DNA of 41,500 nt from Prochlorococcus sp. AG-418-F08 (lineage in GTDB: Bacteria; Cyanobacteriota; Cyanobacteriia; PCC-6307; Cyanobiaceae): positions 1-41,500 of the forward strand of contig QCLV01000012.1 of NCBI GenBank assembly GCA_003214295.1, in the 5' to 3' direction. The translations under genes and the position numbers were made by a program. Within the stretch, counting starts at the first letter, position 1; every line of letters starts with the position of its first letter. The notes beneath the pieces are model-generated. The model saw only the letters and a program-made list of their open reading frames with translations. It was not told where the DNA came from and did no database searches. Positions 2,379 to 13,427 of the stretch are shown here, piece after piece.

Positions 2379-5300
2379 ATGGGTTTCGTTCCGCTTCATA
2401 ACCATAGTGACTACAGTTTGCTGGATGGAGCCAGCCAAATTTCAAAAATTGTTGATAGAGCTAGCGATCTTGGAATGGATTCTATTGCTCTGACCGATCA
2501 TGGTGTTATGTATGGAGTTCTTGATTTAGTCAAGAAGTGTAAAGAGAAAGGGATAAAACCAATTATTGGTAATGAAATGTATGTGATTAATGGTTCTATT
2601 GATGATCCTCAACCCAAAAAAGAAAAAAGATATCATTTGGTGGTTTTAGCAAAAAATCATACTGGCTATAAAAATCTCGTAAAGTTAACAACTATTAGTC
2701 ACTTAAATGGGATGAGAGGTCGAGGTATTTTTTCTAGACCATGTATTGACAAGTATCTTTTAAATAAATATAAGGATGGTCTAATAGTTTCTACGGCTTG
2801 CCTTGGTGGCGAGATACCTCAGGCCATTTTGAAAGGAAGATTAGATGTAGCAGAGGATATAGCTCTTTGGTATAAAAATTTATTTGCAGATGATTTTTAT
2901 CTGGAAATACAAGATCACGGCTCTATTGAAGATAGAATTGTAAATGTCGAATTATTAAAAATAGGCAAAAAACATGCAATTAAAGTTATAGCAACAAATG
3001 ACGCTCATTACATTTCCAATATGGATGTTGAAGCACATGATGCTTTACTTTGCGTATTGACAGGGAAACTAATAAGCGATGAAAAACGTTTGAGATATAC
3101 CGGTACGGAATATATTAAGAGTGAAAATGAAATGCTTGAACTTTTTAAGGATCATATAGATGAAGAATCAATTAAAGATGCAGTGAACAATACAGTAGAA
3201 ATTTCTGAAAAAATTGAAGTATTTGATTTGTTTGGTAAATATAGAATGCCAAAATTCCCTCTTAAGAAAGAAAAAGATTCATTTTCTTTCCTTACTCAAT
3301 TATCTAACGAAGGTCTTTTAAAGAGATTGAAAAAAAAGAATCTTCAAGAAGTTGATGAGAATTATAAAAAAAGACTTTCTTCGGAATTAAAAATCATAAA
3401 AGATATGGGTTTCCCTGATTATTTCTTAGTTGTTTGGGACTATATCAAATTTGCTAGGGACAACTCTATTCCTGTAGGTCCTGGAAGAGGTTCTGCTGCA
3501 GGATCACTAGTAGCCTATGCTCTTCAAATTACAAATATAGATCCTGTTGAGCATGGATTATTGTTTGAGAGATTTTTAAATCCCGCAAGAAAGTCTATGC
3601 CAGATATTGATACTGACTTTTGTATTGATAGGAGAAATGAAGTTATTGATTATGTTACTAATCGATATGGAGAAGATAAAGTTGCGCAAATAATTACTTT
3701 TAATAAAATGACTTCTAAGGCAGTTTTAAAAGATGTAGCAAGGGTTTTAGATATTCCTTATGGAGAGGCTGATAAATTGGCTAAGTTGATACCTGTTGTT
3801 AGAGGTAAACCTTATAAACTCAATGAAATGATTGACAAGAATTCTCCTAGCCAGGAGTTTAGAGATAAGTATATTAAGGACGATAAGGTCAAAAAATGGG
3901 TTGATTTGGCTTTAAGAATTGAAGGAACTAATAAAACATATGGGGTTCATGCTGCAGGAGTTGTTATTGCATCAGATCCACTCGATGAACTTGTACCTCT
4001 CCAAAGAAATAATGAAGGTCAAATAATAACACAATATTCCATGGATGATATTGAATCACTTGGATTATTAAAAATGGATTTCTTGGGTCTGAAGAATCTT
4101 ACTATGATTGAAAAGACGGTTTCTTTGATTAATCAATCAACTGGAAAAACAATTAATATTGACGATTTACCTCAAAACGATTGTAAAACTTTTGATCTTA
4201 TTGGGAGAGGTGATCTTGAAGGTATTTTTCAACTTGAATCTTCAGGTATGAAGCAGGTTGTAAAGGAATTTAAACCTAATTCTCTTGAGGATATTTCATC
4301 TATCCTTGCTCTTTATCGCCCTGGTCCTCTTGATGCTGGTCTTATACCTAAATTCATAAATCGAAAAAATGGGAATGAAAAGGTTGATTTTCCTCATCCT
4401 TTTATTAAGTCAATTCTCACCGAAACCTACGGAATTATGGTTTACCAAGAACAAATCATGAAAATTGCTCAAGACTTAGCGGGTTATTCTCTTGGTGATG
4501 CTGATTTACTACGAAGAGCAATGGGTAAAAAGAAAGTATCAGAGATGGTTAAACATAGGAATATTTTTGTCGAGGGCTCTATGAATAAAGGAGTAAATGA
4601 AAAATTAGCAAATGATCTTTTTGATCAAATGGTTTTATTTGCAGAATATTGTTTTAACAAAAGCCATTCAACTGCTTATGGTGCTGTTACTTATCAGACT
4701 GCGTTTTTAAAAGCCCATTTTCCTGTCGCTTATATGGCAGCTCTCTTAAGCGTAAATTCTGGTTCTAGCGACAAGATGCAAAGATATATTTCTAATTGTT
4801 ATTCCATGGGAATAGAAGTTATTTCTCCAAGCATTAATTTCTCTGGGGTTGATTTCACTATTAAAAATAATCAGATTTTGTTCGGTTTATCTGCGATCAA
4901 GAATTTAGGAGATTCAGCTATAAGAAATATTATTGAAAACCGTAGTAGTTTTGGAACCTTTAAGTCATTATCGGATTTGTGCGATCGTTTACCATCTAAT
5001 GTTCTTAACAAAAGAAGTCTTGAATCTCTAATTCATTGTGGAGCGCTTGATGAGTTCTCAAATAATGATAATAGAGCTCAGTTATTGTCAGATCTCGAAC
5101 ATGTAATTGAGTGGGCCTCTTCAAGAAATCGTGATAGATTATCTGGTCAAGGAAATCTATTTGATTCTAAAGAGGAATTTTCTAATGTTGCTTTTTCAGA
5201 TTCACAATTAGCTAAGGTTGATGATTATTCCCTTATTGAGAAGTTAAGGTTAGAAAAGCAGCTTTTAGGTTTTTATTTATCTGATCATCCTCTAAAACAT

Positions 5301-8686: not shown

Positions 8687-10720
8687 ATGGTTCATTCTAT
8701 ACATCCAAGAACTATTCAAGAGATTAAGGAAAAGGCAGATATTGTAGATGTTATTTCTGAACATATTGTTCTTAAGAAGAAAGGCAAGGAATTTGTTGGT
8801 ATTTGCCCATTTCATGATGATAGTAAGCCATCTATGACAGTATCACCAAGTAAACAATTCTATTATTGTTTTTCTTGTGGTGCTGGTGGTAACTCTATTA
8901 AATTTTTAATGGAATTTACTCGTGCAAATTTTTCTGATGTTGTACTTTCTCTTGCTAAGAAAAATAATATTAATGTTGAAAATTTTGAAGGGCCCCAAGT
9001 AGAAGCATATAAAAAACAATTATCTAGAAAGGAGGAGCTTTATAAAATATTAAGGGTCACTAAAAATTGGTTTAAGTCTCAATTAAATAATTCTATAGGT
9101 GTTGAAGCTATGAAATATTTAAAAAACAAGAGGAACTTGAGTAATAAAATTATCGACGACTTTGAATTAGGTTTTGCTCCAAATTCATGGAATGATTTAT
9201 TTAACTATCTATCTATGGTTGAAAAATTTCCTATTAATCTAATATTGGCTTCAGGCCTTGCAATTTCTAAGGATAATTCTGACAAGATTTATGATCGTTT
9301 TAGAAATAGATTAATTGTTCCAATACATGATATGCAGGGGCGTGTTGTTGCCTTTGGTGGAAGATCACTTGATGGACAGGAACCTAAATATCTTAATTCT
9401 CCTGAATCAGAGATATTTGAAAAAGGGAAAATGTTGTTTTCATTTGATAAAGCATCTAGCAATATAAGAAAAAGAGATAAAGCTATTATTGTTGAAGGAT
9501 ACTTTGATGTGATTGCTCTTCATTCAAAAGGTATAACTAATTCTGTAGCTTCCCTCGGCACGGCATTAAATAAATATCAAATTTCCCAACTATGTAGATG
9601 CACGGATAATAAGAATATAATATTGAATTTTGATTCTGATAATGCAGGAATATTAGCTACAAAAAGAGTAATAAAAGAAGTAGAAAGCTTATCTCTCAAT
9701 GATCAAATTAATCTTAAGATACTACAACTTAATGATTTTAAAGATCCTGACGAATTTTTGAATAGCCATACACCAGAAGATTATTTTAATCTAATTGATA
9801 ATTCATCCTTTTGGATTGATTGGGAGATTGATCAGATCTTTAAAGATAAAGATTTAAGTAAGTCTGAAAATTTCCAAAGTGTTATTTCTTCATTGGTAAA
9901 ATTGTTGAGCAAATTACCTCAATCATCAATAAGGACACATTACTTACAAAAAGTTTCCGAACGATTGAGTAAGGGACAAGCAAGGTTAGCTATACAGTTC
10001 GAACAAGATTTAAGAAATCAAGTTAAGGGATTTCGTTGGCATGGTAGATCAAAAAAATTTGAACAACCAAATGAAATTTCTCGGCGTGAGAAAAATGAAT
10101 CGGAAATAATCTTTTATTATTTGCATTGTCCTGATCTTCGGTTATTTATTCGCGATGAATTTCTTAAAAGAGAAATTAATGTTTTTAACACTAATCATAT
10201 TCAAATTTTGTGGGAAGCTATTTCCAAAATTGAACAAAATAATTTAGGTTTAGATTATTTAAATGAATTAAATGAATCTGATAGTCATAATATTCAAAAA
10301 GAGTTTTTTGCTATTGACTTAATTTCACTTCTTTCTGATCACTTAGCTCTTTATAATCCTGATTTATCAAATAAAATTAATAATTTTGTTAATCCAAATG
10401 AGTTATTTTTAACATTGCTTACTAATCCGAAAGATAATTTACTTGGAACTTTATCACTTCTTGAAAAATATAATTCTTTAAAAAGATGTAGACACTTGAT
10501 CGAATCTTGGGGATCACAAAGATTAAAAACTTTAGAAAATTGTATTTCTATTTTAATTGATAATCCTTCTTCAGTTTCCTCAGAGACTAATAAAGAGATA
10601 GATGATCTTTTTAAGGACTTAAATTCAGATGCGATTAAATTTCAGGAATTATATTACTTAGAAAGACAACATATAAGTTTTTTAGATAAACAACGCTGTG
10701 GTAATTTTATTACTAGCTAA
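8687..10720 (+). CDS. dnaG: DNA primase
   Basis: DnaG makes the RNA primers for leading- and lagging-strand synthesis. The 677 residues contain the N-terminal zinc-binding domain with Cys40-x2-His43-x17-Cys61-x2-Cys64 (the CHC2 finger), the RNA-polymerase core with YDRFRNRLIVPIHD near residue 202 and AFGGRSLD, and the TOPRIM catalytic residues Glu270 (IVEGYFDVI), Asp316 and Asp318 (NFDSDNAG). The C-terminal third is weakly conserved, as expected for the DnaB-binding region. The start is ATG at 8687. It is divergent from the EamA gene and convergent with the metalloprotease-like gene, leaving 16 bp at its 3' end. Confidence 0.97.
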   Translation: MVHSIHPRTIQEIKEKADIVDVISEHIVLKKKGKEFVGICPFHDDSKPSMTVSPSKQFYYCFSCGAGGNSIKFLMEFTRANFSDVVLSLAKKNNINVENFEGPQVEAYKKQLSRKEELYKILRVTKNWFKSQLNNSIGVEAMKYLKNKRNLSNKIIDDFELGFAPNSWNDLFNYLSMVEKFPINLILASGLAISKDNSDKIYDRFRNRLIVPIHDMQGRVVAFGGRSLDGQEPKYLNSPESEIFEKGKMLFSFDKASSNIRKRDKAIIVEGYFDVIALHSKGITNSVASLGTALNKYQISQLCRCTDNKNIILNFDSDNAGILATKRVIKEVESLSLNDQINLKILQLNDFKDPDEFLNSHTPEDYFNLIDNSSFWIDWEIDQIFKDKDLSKSENFQSVISSLVKLLSKLPQSSIRTHYLQKVSERLSKGQARLAIQFEQDLRNQVKGFRWHGRSKKFEQPNEISRREKNESEIIFYYLHCPDLRLFIRDEFLKREINVFNTNHIQILWEAISKIEQNNLGLDYLNELNESDSHNIQKEFFAIDLISLLSDHLALYNPDLSNKINNFVNPNELFLTLLTNPKDNLLGTLSLLEKYNSLKRCRHLIESWGSQRLKTLENCISILIDNPSSVSSETNKEIDDLFKDLNSDAIKFQELYYLERQHISFLDKQRCGNFITS

Positions 10721-10736
10721 CTTATTTTATTTAAAT

Positions 10737-11204
10737 TTATAGGCAGTATTTTTTAATCATATTTTTTACCTTTTTGGGCTTGTCTTCCAGAATATAAGCT
10801 TCTACTTCTTTCGCATAAGTTCCAGAAAAATTAGAAGTAGAGAACTCTAATGATCGCCTCTTACTTTGATGTAATTTAGCTTCTAAATTTTTTATATCCC
10901 CTACTGTCTTATTGTTGTTACATTTTTGTATAGCATGAGTAGCTTCATGTCTTAATGCTTTTCTTATAGCCAATTTTGTTTTGAAGTTGTCTTTATTTGG
11001 TAGCTGCTTTTTATTTCTATAATTTGTTTTCCTTTTCGCATTTTCAGTACATATTATTATTTTATTTTCTACAAAATTATGTAGTCCTTTTATTTCTTTA
11101 TTTAAGAGACATTCAATTTTATTTTCTTCAACTTCATAGTTTGCTTTTATTAATAAGTCAAGAATCTCTTTATCTAATTTGCTTAAAAATATAATAAATT
11201 CCAT
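10737..11204 (-). CDS. Putative HExxH zinc metalloprotease-like protein, possibly third gene of the umuDC operon
   Basis: A 155-residue, Lys-rich soluble protein with no signal peptide. The only strong landmark is His86-Glu87-Ala-Thr-His90 in a helix (RKALRHEATHAIQKC), the zinc and catalytic motif of gluzincin and metzincin-type peptidases, followed 45 residues later by an acidic EVEAYIL segment (Glu133, Glu135) that could supply the third zinc ligand. The HE-T-H-A-x-x-x-C arrangement recalls the Atp23 peptidases of mitochondria, but I cannot claim homology. The start is ATG at 11204, only 8 bp after the umuC stop and on the same strand, so it is likely co-transcribed with umuDC. Activity and target are unknown. 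Confidence 0.75.
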   Translation of the reverse strand: MEFIIFLSKLDKEILDLLIKANYEVEENKIECLLNKEIKGLHNFVENKIIICTENAKRKTNYRNKKQLPNKDNFKTKLAIRKALRHEATHAIQKCNNNKTVGDIKNLEAKLHQSKRRSLEFSTSNFSGTYAKEVEAYILEDKPKKVKNMIKKYCL

Positions 11205-11212
11205 TTTATTTT

Positions 11213-12499
11213 TTACTTTACTATAGTTGGGATTTGTTCAATATCAGTTGTAGATGAGCGACTTAAGAAATTCTTATTCATCGTCCAACTTTTTGGCGTT
11301 TTTGTAATGGCCCATGTAATTGCATTGTTATTAAATCTTTTATTTAATAAATCAATAGTTCTCATTAGAATTGCTGATTTTTTTAGGTCTTTCTGAGATT
11401 TGTAATTGATAACTGATTGCTGTAAATATTCGCTATTAGTTAAATCCTGCATTAAAACACCAGCTTTTGAGAATTTATATTCGGGATTATAAATTTCTTT
11501 AGATAATTCAACTACTATTTTTAAAATGCTGTTTGTGTCGTCTGTTGCATTTGTAAGTTTTCTATGAGCACTTCTTTGATAATTTTGACTTGAATATTTA
11601 CTGGTTCTGGCAAATACTCTAATATCAGATGATTGCAAATTCTGACTTCTCATTTTTTCGGATGCTTTTATTGCGTGAGTCGCTAGTGCTTGAGTTAAGT
11701 CTTCTAATTTTGTGACAGGAGTACCGAAACTCCTGCTTACCTGAATTTCTTTTTTTGATTTCTTGTTTTTTTCTATAGGCAGACATTTATAACCTTTCAG
11801 TTCTAATTGCAATCTTTTTCCTACTATGCCTAGTTTCTTGGTGATTTCATTTTCTTCCATATCTCTTAATTCTTTCGCATTCTTAATACCTTTACTTTGC
11901 AACCAATTAGAGGTTTGTTTGCCGACTCCCCATATCTTATCTACACTAATTCTTTTTAAATAATTATTCTCATTTCTGGTTCTAGCTAAATCAAATATTC
12001 CAGCTGAATAATCAATATTTTTAGCTAATTTATTAGCAATTTTTGCTCTTACTTTATTTTCTCCTATTCCTACTGTTATGGTAATCCCTAGATTCTGATA
12101 TATTAATGATCTTATGTTTCTTGCCCAAGGATATAGATTTTTATCATTAGGTCTAGAAATCGAGACAAATGCTTCGTCAATAGAATAAATTTCTATCTGT
12201 TCACAGTAGTTTTTCAGTAAATTCATTAGTCTTCTGCTCATATCCCCATAAAGCGAGTAGTTTGAGCTTAAGACTGCTACATCTAATTTATTTAATCTTT
12301 CTTTGACCTTAAAATACGGAGTTCCCATTTTAATTTTTAAAGCTCGCGCTTCAGGACTTCTCGCAATGATACATCCGTCATTATTAGATAAAATTACTAC
12401 TGGTTTATTTCTCAAATGAGGATTAATATTTTGTTCACATGACGCGTAAAAATTATTAGCATCTATAAGAGCTATTGCATCAACATTTGAAATTCTCAT
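11213..12499 (-). CDS. umuC: Y-family translesion DNA polymerase V catalytic subunit
   Basis: UmuC copies past DNA lesions with low fidelity as part of Pol V (UmuD'2C). The 428-residue length is typical. Catalytic acids are present: Asp13 (LIDANNFYASCE) and Asp108-Glu109 (YSIDEAFVSI). The NNDGCIIARS and KIKMGTPYFK finger motifs, the HhH region (VDKIWGVGKQTSNWL) and the little-finger domain follow, and the C-terminus keeps the family SPATVEST-like end (LSRSSTTDIEQIPTI). Its ATG overlaps the umuD stop by 4 bp, which indicates translational coupling. Control by LexA is inferred from the box in front of umuD. Confidence 0.97.
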   Translation of the reverse strand: MRISNVDAIALIDANNFYASCEQNINPHLRNKPVVILSNNDGCIIARSPEARALKIKMGTPYFKVKERLNKLDVAVLSSNYSLYGDMSRRLMNLLKNYCEQIEIYSIDEAFVSISRPNDKNLYPWARNIRSLIYQNLGITITVGIGENKVRAKIANKLAKNIDYSAGIFDLARTRNENNYLKRISVDKIWGVGKQTSNWLQSKGIKNAKELRDMEENEITKKLGIVGKRLQLELKGYKCLPIEKNKKSKKEIQVSRSFGTPVTKLEDLTQALATHAIKASEKMRSQNLQSSDIRVFARTSKYSSQNYQRSAHRKLTNATDDTNSILKIVVELSKEIYNPEYKFSKAGVLMQDLTNSEYLQQSVINYKSQKDLKKSAILMRTIDLLNKRFNNNAITWAITKTPKSWTMNKNFLSRSSTTDIEQIPTIVK

Positions 12500-12924
12500 A
12501 AATAGCTATGTATTGAATAAATGACAACTCCCCATATCTGTACATCAATGTGGTTTTTAAATCTAAAATCAGGATAATTATGATTTTCTGCTTTTAAATA
12601 TAATTCATTATTTTTTATAGATAATCTTTTTATTGTAAATTCTCCGTCTATCATTGCAATGATGATATTCCCTGGCCTGGCTGTTAAGCTCTTGTCTACT
12701 ATTATTAAATCTTTATCTTTAATTCCTGCATTTATCATTGAGTCACCTTTAACTCTAAGAAAAAAAGTGCTAAATGGATTAGATATTAAATGTTCATTTA
12801 AATCAATATTTTCTTCCGTATAGTCATCAGCAGGAGAAGGAAACCCTGCTGATACCGAATCAGTTAATAAGGGGATTTTAAATTTTTTAGTAGTTGAATC
12901 AAAAGAATCCAAGATTAAATTCAT
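12496..12924 (-). CDS. umuD: UmuD, self-cleaving S24 peptidase subunit of DNA polymerase V
   Basis: UmuD is cleaved, stimulated by RecA filaments, to UmuD', which partners UmuC. The 142 residues show the cleavage site Ala26-Gly27 in SVSAGFPSPADDY, the nucleophile Ser62 (KGDSM) and the general base Lys99 (GEFTIKRL). The spacings of 35 and 37 residues equal those in E. coli UmuD (Gly25-Ser60-Lys97), though the scissile bond here is Ala-Gly rather than Cys-Gly. The start is ATG at 12924. There is no Shine-Dalgarno sequence because a LexA-type palindrome reaches the start codon, so the mRNA may be leaderless. There is no other Met before the cleavage site. Confidence 0.96.
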   Translation of the reverse strand: MNLILDSFDSTTKKFKIPLLTDSVSAGFPSPADDYTEENIDLNEHLISNPFSTFFLRVKGDSMINAGIKDKDLIIVDKSLTARPGNIIIAMIDGEFTIKRLSIKNNELYLKAENHNYPDFRFKNHIDVQIWGVVIYSIHSYL

Positions 12925-12939
12925 AGTATATATGTACTA
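12924..12939 (-). promoter_or_regulatory. Putative LexA (SOS) box over the umuD promoter and start codon
   Basis: Read toward umuD the sequence is TAGTACATATATACTA, an imperfect palindrome whose inner AGTACATATATACT matches the published cyanobacterial LexA consensus RGTAC-N3-D-GTWCB with one mismatch. A TATAGT -10 candidate overlaps its upstream edge (12936-12941), and the box touches the A of the umuD ATG. LexA binding would occlude RNA polymerase. The family association with umuDC supports it; binding is not shown. Confidence 0.65.
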
Positions 12940-13010
12940 TATAGCAAAAAATCAAAAAATAGTTAGTTATTAAACTTTTATAGATTAATTTTGGATTGAA
13001 TCTACTCTTT

Positions 13011-13427
13011 TTAAGAGCGATGGTAAGGGGAGTTGTTAGATATAGAAATAGCTCTATAGATTTGCTCGATAAGGATTAATCTAGCTAATTCATGAGGAAA
13101 AGTTAAAGGAGACAGGCTTAGTACAAGATCTGATTTTTCTTTTATATCTGAACTAACTCCATCAGTATCACCGATTAAGAAATTAATTTTTTTATTTTTA
13201 AAATTCAAGAGTAAGGAACATAGTTCAACTGAATTAAACTGCTTCCCTTCTTCACTTAGGCAGATAATAATATTGTTATTGGATCTAAGATTATTTAAAT
13301 TAAAAGTCTTTAACTCATTAATGATAAGTTCAGGCATTCTTTTTTTGTATTGATTAATTCCATCTCTAATCCAAAGTTTCTTTATTTTGCCGATAGCATA
13401 AATCGTTAATCTATTACTCTGAAGCAT
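13011..13427 (-). CDS. rlmH: 23S rRNA pseudouridine-1915 N3-methyltransferase
   Basis: RlmH methylates pseudouridine 1915 in helix 69 of 23S rRNA on the assembled ribosome. The 138-residue SPOUT protein shows [20 protein letters not shown] at the N-terminus, [17 protein letters not shown], the SAM-binding loop [13 protein letters not shown] (family IGGxxG, here IGDTDG), and the C-terminal [19 protein letters not shown] with NSPYHRS at the end. The length is slightly short of E. coli RlmH (155) but the core is complete. It starts at ATG 13427, 19 bp after the next upstream gene. One glycine of the canonical loop is replaced by Asp, which may be normal in this clade. Confidence 0.93.

Follow-up and report, generated by a model that had tools for sequence, protein, structure and literature searches.

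A predicted zincin-like protein encoded directly behind umuDC in Prochlorococcus, with relatives near the sliding clamp gene of cyanophages

We analyzed a stretch of 41,500 nucleotides (nt) from Prochlorococcus sp. AG-418-F08 (Cyanobiaceae; GenBank assembly GCA_003214295.1, contig QCLV01000012.1, positions 1 to 41,500 of the forward strand), referred to below as the window. Its minus strand carries, in this order, umuD, umuC, and a gene for a protein of 155 amino acids (aa) with an HExxH motif, which we call M. UmuD and UmuC, the two subunits of the error-prone DNA repair polymerase V (Pol V), are backed by Pfam and NCBIfam matches. The features of the locus are as follows.

12924-12939, minus strand: LexA-type box TAGTACATATATACTA, which shares the first base of the umuD start codon
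12496-12924, minus strand: umuD, autoproteolytic subunit of Pol V, 142 aa, Peptidase_S24 domain
11213-12499, minus strand: umuC, catalytic subunit of Pol V, 428 aa, domains IMS, IMS_C, and DUF4113
10737-11204, minus strand: M, HExxH protein (predicted to be zincin-like), 155 aa, AlphaFold model, PHROG 16003
10935-10949, minus strand: HEATH, the predicted zinc-binding and catalytic HExxH, M residues 86-90
10797-10808, minus strand: EVEA, M residues 133-136, in a helix after HEATH, with E133 or E135 as candidate for the third zinc ligand
8687-10720, plus strand: dnaG, convergent neighbor that bounds the operon and lies outside the system

The umuD and umuC genes share 4 nt, and 8 nt separate the umuC stop from the M start. 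An earlier note, made from the sequence of the window alone, had described this spacing, the LexA-type box before umuD, and a 155-residue protein with HEATH and a downstream EVEA; all of these were found in place, the box with one mismatch and EVEA at residues 133-136. The note's single damage-induced transcript implied that neither a terminator nor a promoter separates umuC from M. The first half of this held, as no terminator-like site was found in 10600-13050. The second is less secure: promoter-like matches in the same interval are at chance level (14 vs. 14.5 in shuffled sequence), and one of them, at 11247-11220 on the minus strand, lies immediately 5' of M, so that a separate weak promoter for M is possible.

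The box has a single mismatch to the Prochlorococcus LexA motif TAGTACA-N2-TGTACTA (PMC2921402; here and below, papers given by PMC number are drawn on in their accessible parts). Two mismatches or fewer are reached by 0.1% of shuffled segments. Among the close relatives of the locus (the best 80 of 118 relatives from a genome scan), the box was present in all 79 with umuD in view, with one mismatch in 76 and two in three. Other genera of the family have it as well: all 12 of their regions in which umuD was found carry the box at one or two mismatches, beginning 6-48 nt 5' of the approximate umuD start; a thirteenth region, L352, was left out, having no umuD within reach. Within this set (L326, L342-L353), the distance is 27-48 nt in 11 of the 12 and 6 nt in L351. 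As the box overlaps the umuD start in the window and lies 27-48 nt 5' of it in nearly all of these regions, the annotated start of umuD may need checking. The umuCD genes are predicted LexA targets in MED4, AS9601, and other strains (PMC3091678), and umuC, the sole gene of the operon with quantitative polymerase chain reaction data in PMC2921402, was at a high level for 8 h after midday under ultraviolet (UV) light.

The link of such a protein to UmuDC appears to be undescribed, as the earlier note had said: none was found in the literature searched, mostly without subscription journals or supplements. The M gene of strain MED4 would, by our assignment, be PMM0936; a search of the same literature for PMM0936-0938 turned up PMM0937 (umuC) alone. 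The accessible parts of PMC2921402, PMC3091678, and PMC2955971 make no mention of a third gene in the umuDC operon.

M matched no family in Pfam or NCBIfam, and no signal peptide is visible in it. Its one family match is to PHROG 16003, over residues 11-154 (E value 3.8e-10); the profile of this family matches 49 of 292 genomes of the phylum. The HExxH motif is complete in 324 of 324 sequences (239 distinct) and H86, E87, and H90 are invariant. This invariance is partly built in, as HExxH was itself part of the search patterns in two of the viral scans; patterns other than HExxH recovered the 80 host loci. Among the 239 distinct sequences, position 133 is E in 230 and D in nine, and position 135 is E in 236 and Q in three. 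Four cysteines (C32, C52, C95, and C154) are retained in 237 of them; of the two exceptions, one is without C32 and C52 and the other without C95 and C154. Because these exceptions drop cysteines pairwise, the alignment suggests that M has two disulfide-like pairs, which one would not expect where no signal peptide is present. The larger-genome relatives that we read carry an N-terminal hydrophobic extension and, by eye, look secreted. By hhalign (probability 98.8%, E 4.4e-17), these paralogues share homology with the cytoplasmic branch.

AlphaFold gave confident models for the window M (65 sequences; predicted local distance difference test 88.5, predicted template modeling score 0.86) and for a phage relative (50 viral sequences; 96.8 and 0.91). 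In the window model, a helix at 71-95 contains H86, E87, and H90, and a helix at 130-139 contains E133 and E135. Foldseek at E ≤ 0.001 gave six viral models, four named as Synechococcus phage proteins and two nameless. With a second structural aligner, zinc-peptidase folds rank top for both models, at Z values that are all below 8, a level that may mean a common arrangement only. IrrE 3dte (Z 7.3 for the window M, 2.0 Å over 79 residues; 7.5 for the phage M, 3.2 Å over 85) is tied with the peptidase domain of anthrax lethal factor 4dv8 (6.6 and 7.3, about 120 residues); further neighbors are PprI with single-stranded DNA (ssDNA) 8sln (6.5 and 6.7), ArdC 6sna (6.0 and 5.9, over 93-94 residues), and, for the phage model alone, the DNA-protein-crosslink protease entry 6mdx (5.2), which we take to be human SPRTN. 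When the family profile was run against PDB sequences, just two non-significant chains, both from one protein, came up. The zincin-like (gluzincin-type) fold suspected in the earlier note is, at the level of prediction, what these models and their top neighbors point to. M is likely a zincin by fold class; we leave out membership in any specific family because the Z values stay below 8 and the profile comparison with M78 peptidases reaches a probability of only 4.8%.

The nearest relatives of M are found in Prochlorococcus single cells and strains, with identities up to 97%. At all 80 close loci, umuC lies directly 5' of M at a gap of 1-15 nt and dnaG is convergent on the 3' side; umuD is in view at 79, and the remaining locus begins inside umuC. 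M is under purifying selection of a strength like that on umuC, the median ratio of nonsynonymous to synonymous substitution rates (dN/dS) against the window being 0.134 for M (n = 80) and 0.129 for umuC (n = 76). More widely, 247 of 400 genomes of the family match profile A2 at E ≤ 0.001, many of them weakly. We tallied 146 genomes with an M match up to E 1.6e-51 among the matches listed. A umuC match is present in 140 of these (109 listed places and 31 of the remaining 37), and in 136 of the 140 umuC lies directly 5' of M on the same strand (107 of 109, with 8-364 nt between the matches, and 29 of 31, with 57-337 nt); homologues of M in these genomes thus mostly adjoin umuC, the adjacency that the earlier note had proposed to look for. 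A umuC match is absent from the other six genomes (G371, G443, G301, G385, G353, and G314); in G385, M starts at base 5 of its contig. The umuDC-linked M proteins of other genera are 38-49% identical to the window M, and umuC is present in many of the family's larger genomes (about 2-4 Mb), where M matches are weak or absent. Joint loss of umuC and M as a unit was considered for five genomes from the genus of the window (G567, G636, G638, G648, and G649) and rejected as an assembly gap, because the dnaG match is missing from all five as well. In G642, a short M match begins at base 3 of its contig.

Relatives of M also occur in phages. Two matches at E ≤ 1 came out of a tblastn search of the window M against 50,697 phage records. 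In one of the two, Synechococcus phage DSL-LC02 (E 3e-7), M lies between the sliding clamp gene and an ATPase gene with a Gp44 lid domain; in SynMITS9220M01 (E 0.9, and E 2e-7 from the DSL-LC02 protein), it is 3' of the clamp gene, one gene away. M lies immediately 3' of the clamp gene in S-SRM01, and the relatives in ACG-2014f and podovirus S-CBP42 sit elsewhere. The DSL-LC02 gene is annotated as a serine hydroxymethyltransferase; this entry (WJZ48381.1; L102, 2998-3408) is an M relative and likely misannotated. Exact-peptide patterns of the window M found no relative among viral contigs.

Scans of viral contigs gave 178 loci (the best 80 of 231, 18 of 18, and the best 80 of 321 relatives). 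In what follows, gp45 denotes the T4-like sliding clamp gene. Among the loci with at least 300 nt upstream, gp45 lies 5' of M in 169 of 171, within 200 nt in 157; among those with at least 1200 nt downstream, gp44 lies 3' of M in 147 of 149, and a pyrimidine-dimer-glycosylase gene occurs within 1.5 kb of M in 122 of the 149. The glycosylase family was confirmed for seven proteins. As the phage loci are related, these counts are not independent events; with the 116 distinct M stretches, gp45 is upstream in 111 of the 112 with room and within 200 nt in 101, and no identical M gene is common to any of the three scans. Two loci (L230 and L231) are without gp45, gp44, or the glycosylase, and in L228 M is separated from gp45 by gp44. 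No umuDC, UmuD, or LexA is annotated in the 6-8 kb phage regions read around M. We had considered the adjacency of clamp and dimer glycosylase as direct proof of a repair role and downgraded it, the glycosylase being widespread (in 362 phage records, of which 315 bear the name Synechococcus, Cyanophage, or Prochlorococcus) and the slot variable, as described below. A protein annotated as DenV (QJT70141.1; L103, 2248-2847) has a sub-cut-off match to 2OG-Fe(II) oxygenases and none to the dimer glycosylase, and is likely misannotated.

In a maximum-likelihood tree of 69 proteins, with several long branches and a bootstrap that did not converge, nine secreted-looking proteins stand apart (93/92) from the other 60, which comprise every phage-type and Prochlorococcus-family M protein along with the long-branched phage protein L105. 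The 26 umuDC-linked proteins cluster with five stand-alone ones (91/91), three of the five being basal; three other stand-alone copies fall outside the umuDC-linked group, among the phage proteins. This fits a gene common to T4-like cyanophages and the Prochlorococcus family that was first alone and later joined to umuDC in that family, with transfer in either direction. M was probably exchanged with cyanophages and put behind umuDC under SOS control. A contig of one larger-genome relative (L322, G507:C289) carries a phage-type M at 4703-5128, with no clamp gene match in view.

Taken as a whole, we read M as a peptidase that is linked to damage or to forks, and give this a probability of roughly 40%. 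On this reading, the most economical one, DNA damage would relieve the repression by LexA of an umuD-umuC-M transcript, from which Pol V and M would be made together. M would be a small cytoplasmic metallopeptidase of the zincin type, binding zinc and cleaving protein at damaged or stalled forks; its substrate may be a protein that is crosslinked or stuck there, or else a factor of replication or of the SOS response. Its cleavage would either let translesion synthesis proceed or shut it down. The removal of obstacles or retired factors from stalled forks would suit both the Pol V operon and the place after the sliding clamp gene in phages. A more elaborate version seems unlikely to us: a peptidase of the cyanophage replisome cluster would have been domesticated in Prochlorococcus by joining the Pol V operon in third place, as an SOS-induced fork protease coupled to translesion synthesis and a bacterial counterpart of eukaryotic SPRTN, possibly redox-gated by its two conserved cysteine pairs. 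The narrower idea of the earlier note, a removal of Pol V subunits by M, loses weight through the M relatives near gp45 in cyanophages, where the 6-8 kb regions read have no annotated umuDC, and through the stand-alone copies in some genomes of the family.

Several observations weigh against M as a damage- or fork-linked peptidase. A LexA box was found before none of the eight stand-alone copies read, M and umuC lie apart in four tallied genomes (G312, G335, G316, and G349), and the wider M family looks, by eye, mostly secreted. The genome of the window also has a separate SprT-like gene (PF10263, E 7.2e-25; G000:C6:72-413, L341). Foldseek found no match in the PDB at E ≤ 0.001 for either the window or the phage model, and the low Z values given above add to this. 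On the viral side, M is near gp45 in four isolate records (three phages), when gp45 is present in 376 Synechococcus-named and 61 Cyanophage-named records. The gap between gp45 and gp44 is, moreover, a variable slot for assorted accessory genes, including genes outside replication: in the control phages (L354-L357) it contains a dioxygenase (phytanoyl-CoA) and two small open reading frames (ORFs) in P-SSM2, an S-adenosylmethionine decarboxylase, the dimer glycosylase, and two small ORFs in S-SKS1, the glycosylase alone in P-SSM4, and nothing in S-RIM44. Because this slot holds such varied genes, adjacency to gp45 is weak evidence for a replication role of M. Finally, umuC and most repair genes are already active in high visible light, with a slight added effect of UV (PMC2921402), and whether any Prochlorococcus uses the SOS system is stated as not known (PMC2955971).

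The same variable slot would suit a genuine peptidase that came to lie behind umuC by insertion and took over the promoter of that gene, functionally unconnected with Pol V and with DNA damage, and we regard this as possible, though doubtful. The eight stand-alone copies, which come from six genomes (G335, G312 with two, G301, G314, G353 with two, and G316), are in keeping with it, as they are without a LexA box and lie near ORFs whose translations resemble rplT, mqo/lepA, groEL, or a ribonucleotide reductase, among others. In G335 (L351), moreover, umuDC is present with umuC facing dnaG and no M match in between. A passenger sits less well with the adjacency to umuC in 136 of the 140 small genomes tallied, with the spacing of 1-15 nt in close relatives, and with a constraint equal to that on umuC. 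In G301, the stand-alone M (L318, G301:C6, 5365-8312) lies 149 nt 3' of a same-strand ORF of 778 aa, which we take to be a ribonucleotide reductase.

M may alternatively regulate the SOS response by cutting LexA, UmuD, or another repressor or switch, thereby setting its timing, in the manner of IrrE/PprI, which acts on DdrO. The first (tied) rank of IrrE/PprI among the structural neighbors of both models, the ExxA found 3' of HExxH in M and in the M78 alignment, and an operon shared with UmuD, itself LexA-like, all speak for such a regulator; we still consider it rather improbable, as there is no profile link between M and M78 (hhalign probability 4.8%), M is too short for the extra domains of IrrE, and the phage regions read are without annotated UmuD or LexA. 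Least probable of all is an ArdC-like counter-defense or anti-restriction protein, carried by phages to protect replicating DNA and reused by the host: ArdC is a structural neighbor and phage M lies near the clamp gene, but the Z values (6.0 and 5.9) are only middling, the shorter M aligns to the C-terminal half of ArdC alone, and a conserved host operon with umuDC is an unexpected place for such a gene.

Few photosynthetic organisms are as abundant as Prochlorococcus, which lives under strong sunlight with a very small gene set. Its small genomes and UV setting are described in PMC2955971 and PMC2921402. An unstudied peptidase-like gene that is kept in its Pol V operon and has kin in a viral replication region raises the possibility that proteolysis is tied to damage tolerance, and bears on whether SOS translesion synthesis in some bacteria brings its own protease. 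With H86, E87, and H90 as its defined candidate active site, the small protein M lends itself to such a question.

Among the known systems nearest to M is PHROG 16003, a phage family without assigned function that M matches along residues 11-154; many of its chromosomal relatives carry an N-terminal hydrophobic extension, which the window M does not have. ArdC, encoded on plasmid R388, is an ssDNA-binding protein with a metalloprotease domain (PMC7213743). A sub-threshold similarity to M76 Atp23 (PF09768) was detected in six of nine M relatives (23.2 bits for L091 and 19.5 for L104); none of the nine reaches the cut-off of 25.2 bits, the window M has no match, and a genome search with PF09768 was uninformative, giving no match anywhere, controls included. 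The resemblance to SprT-like proteins and SPRTN (PF10263) lies in the way of working only, that of a zinc peptidase tied to replication through damage: the structural match to 6mdx is weak (Z 5.2), the window M does not match PF10263, and its relatives reach at best E 0.018 and 15.3 of the 25.6 bits required. The SprT-like gene of the window's genome (L341) is the only PF10263 match at E ≤ 1e-8 among 29 genomes of the phylum searched. The M78 peptidases IrrE/PprI (PF06114) resemble M as its top-ranked, tied fold neighbors, in the HExxH with a later ExxA, and in their DNA-damage setting. The window M has no profile match to PF06114 at E ≤ 10, its hhalign comparison with M78 proteins of the phylum covers 11 columns at the 4.8% given above, and IrrE has additional domains for which M has no room. 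M also differs from IrrE/PprI in its place, a LexA-type operon shared with Pol V.

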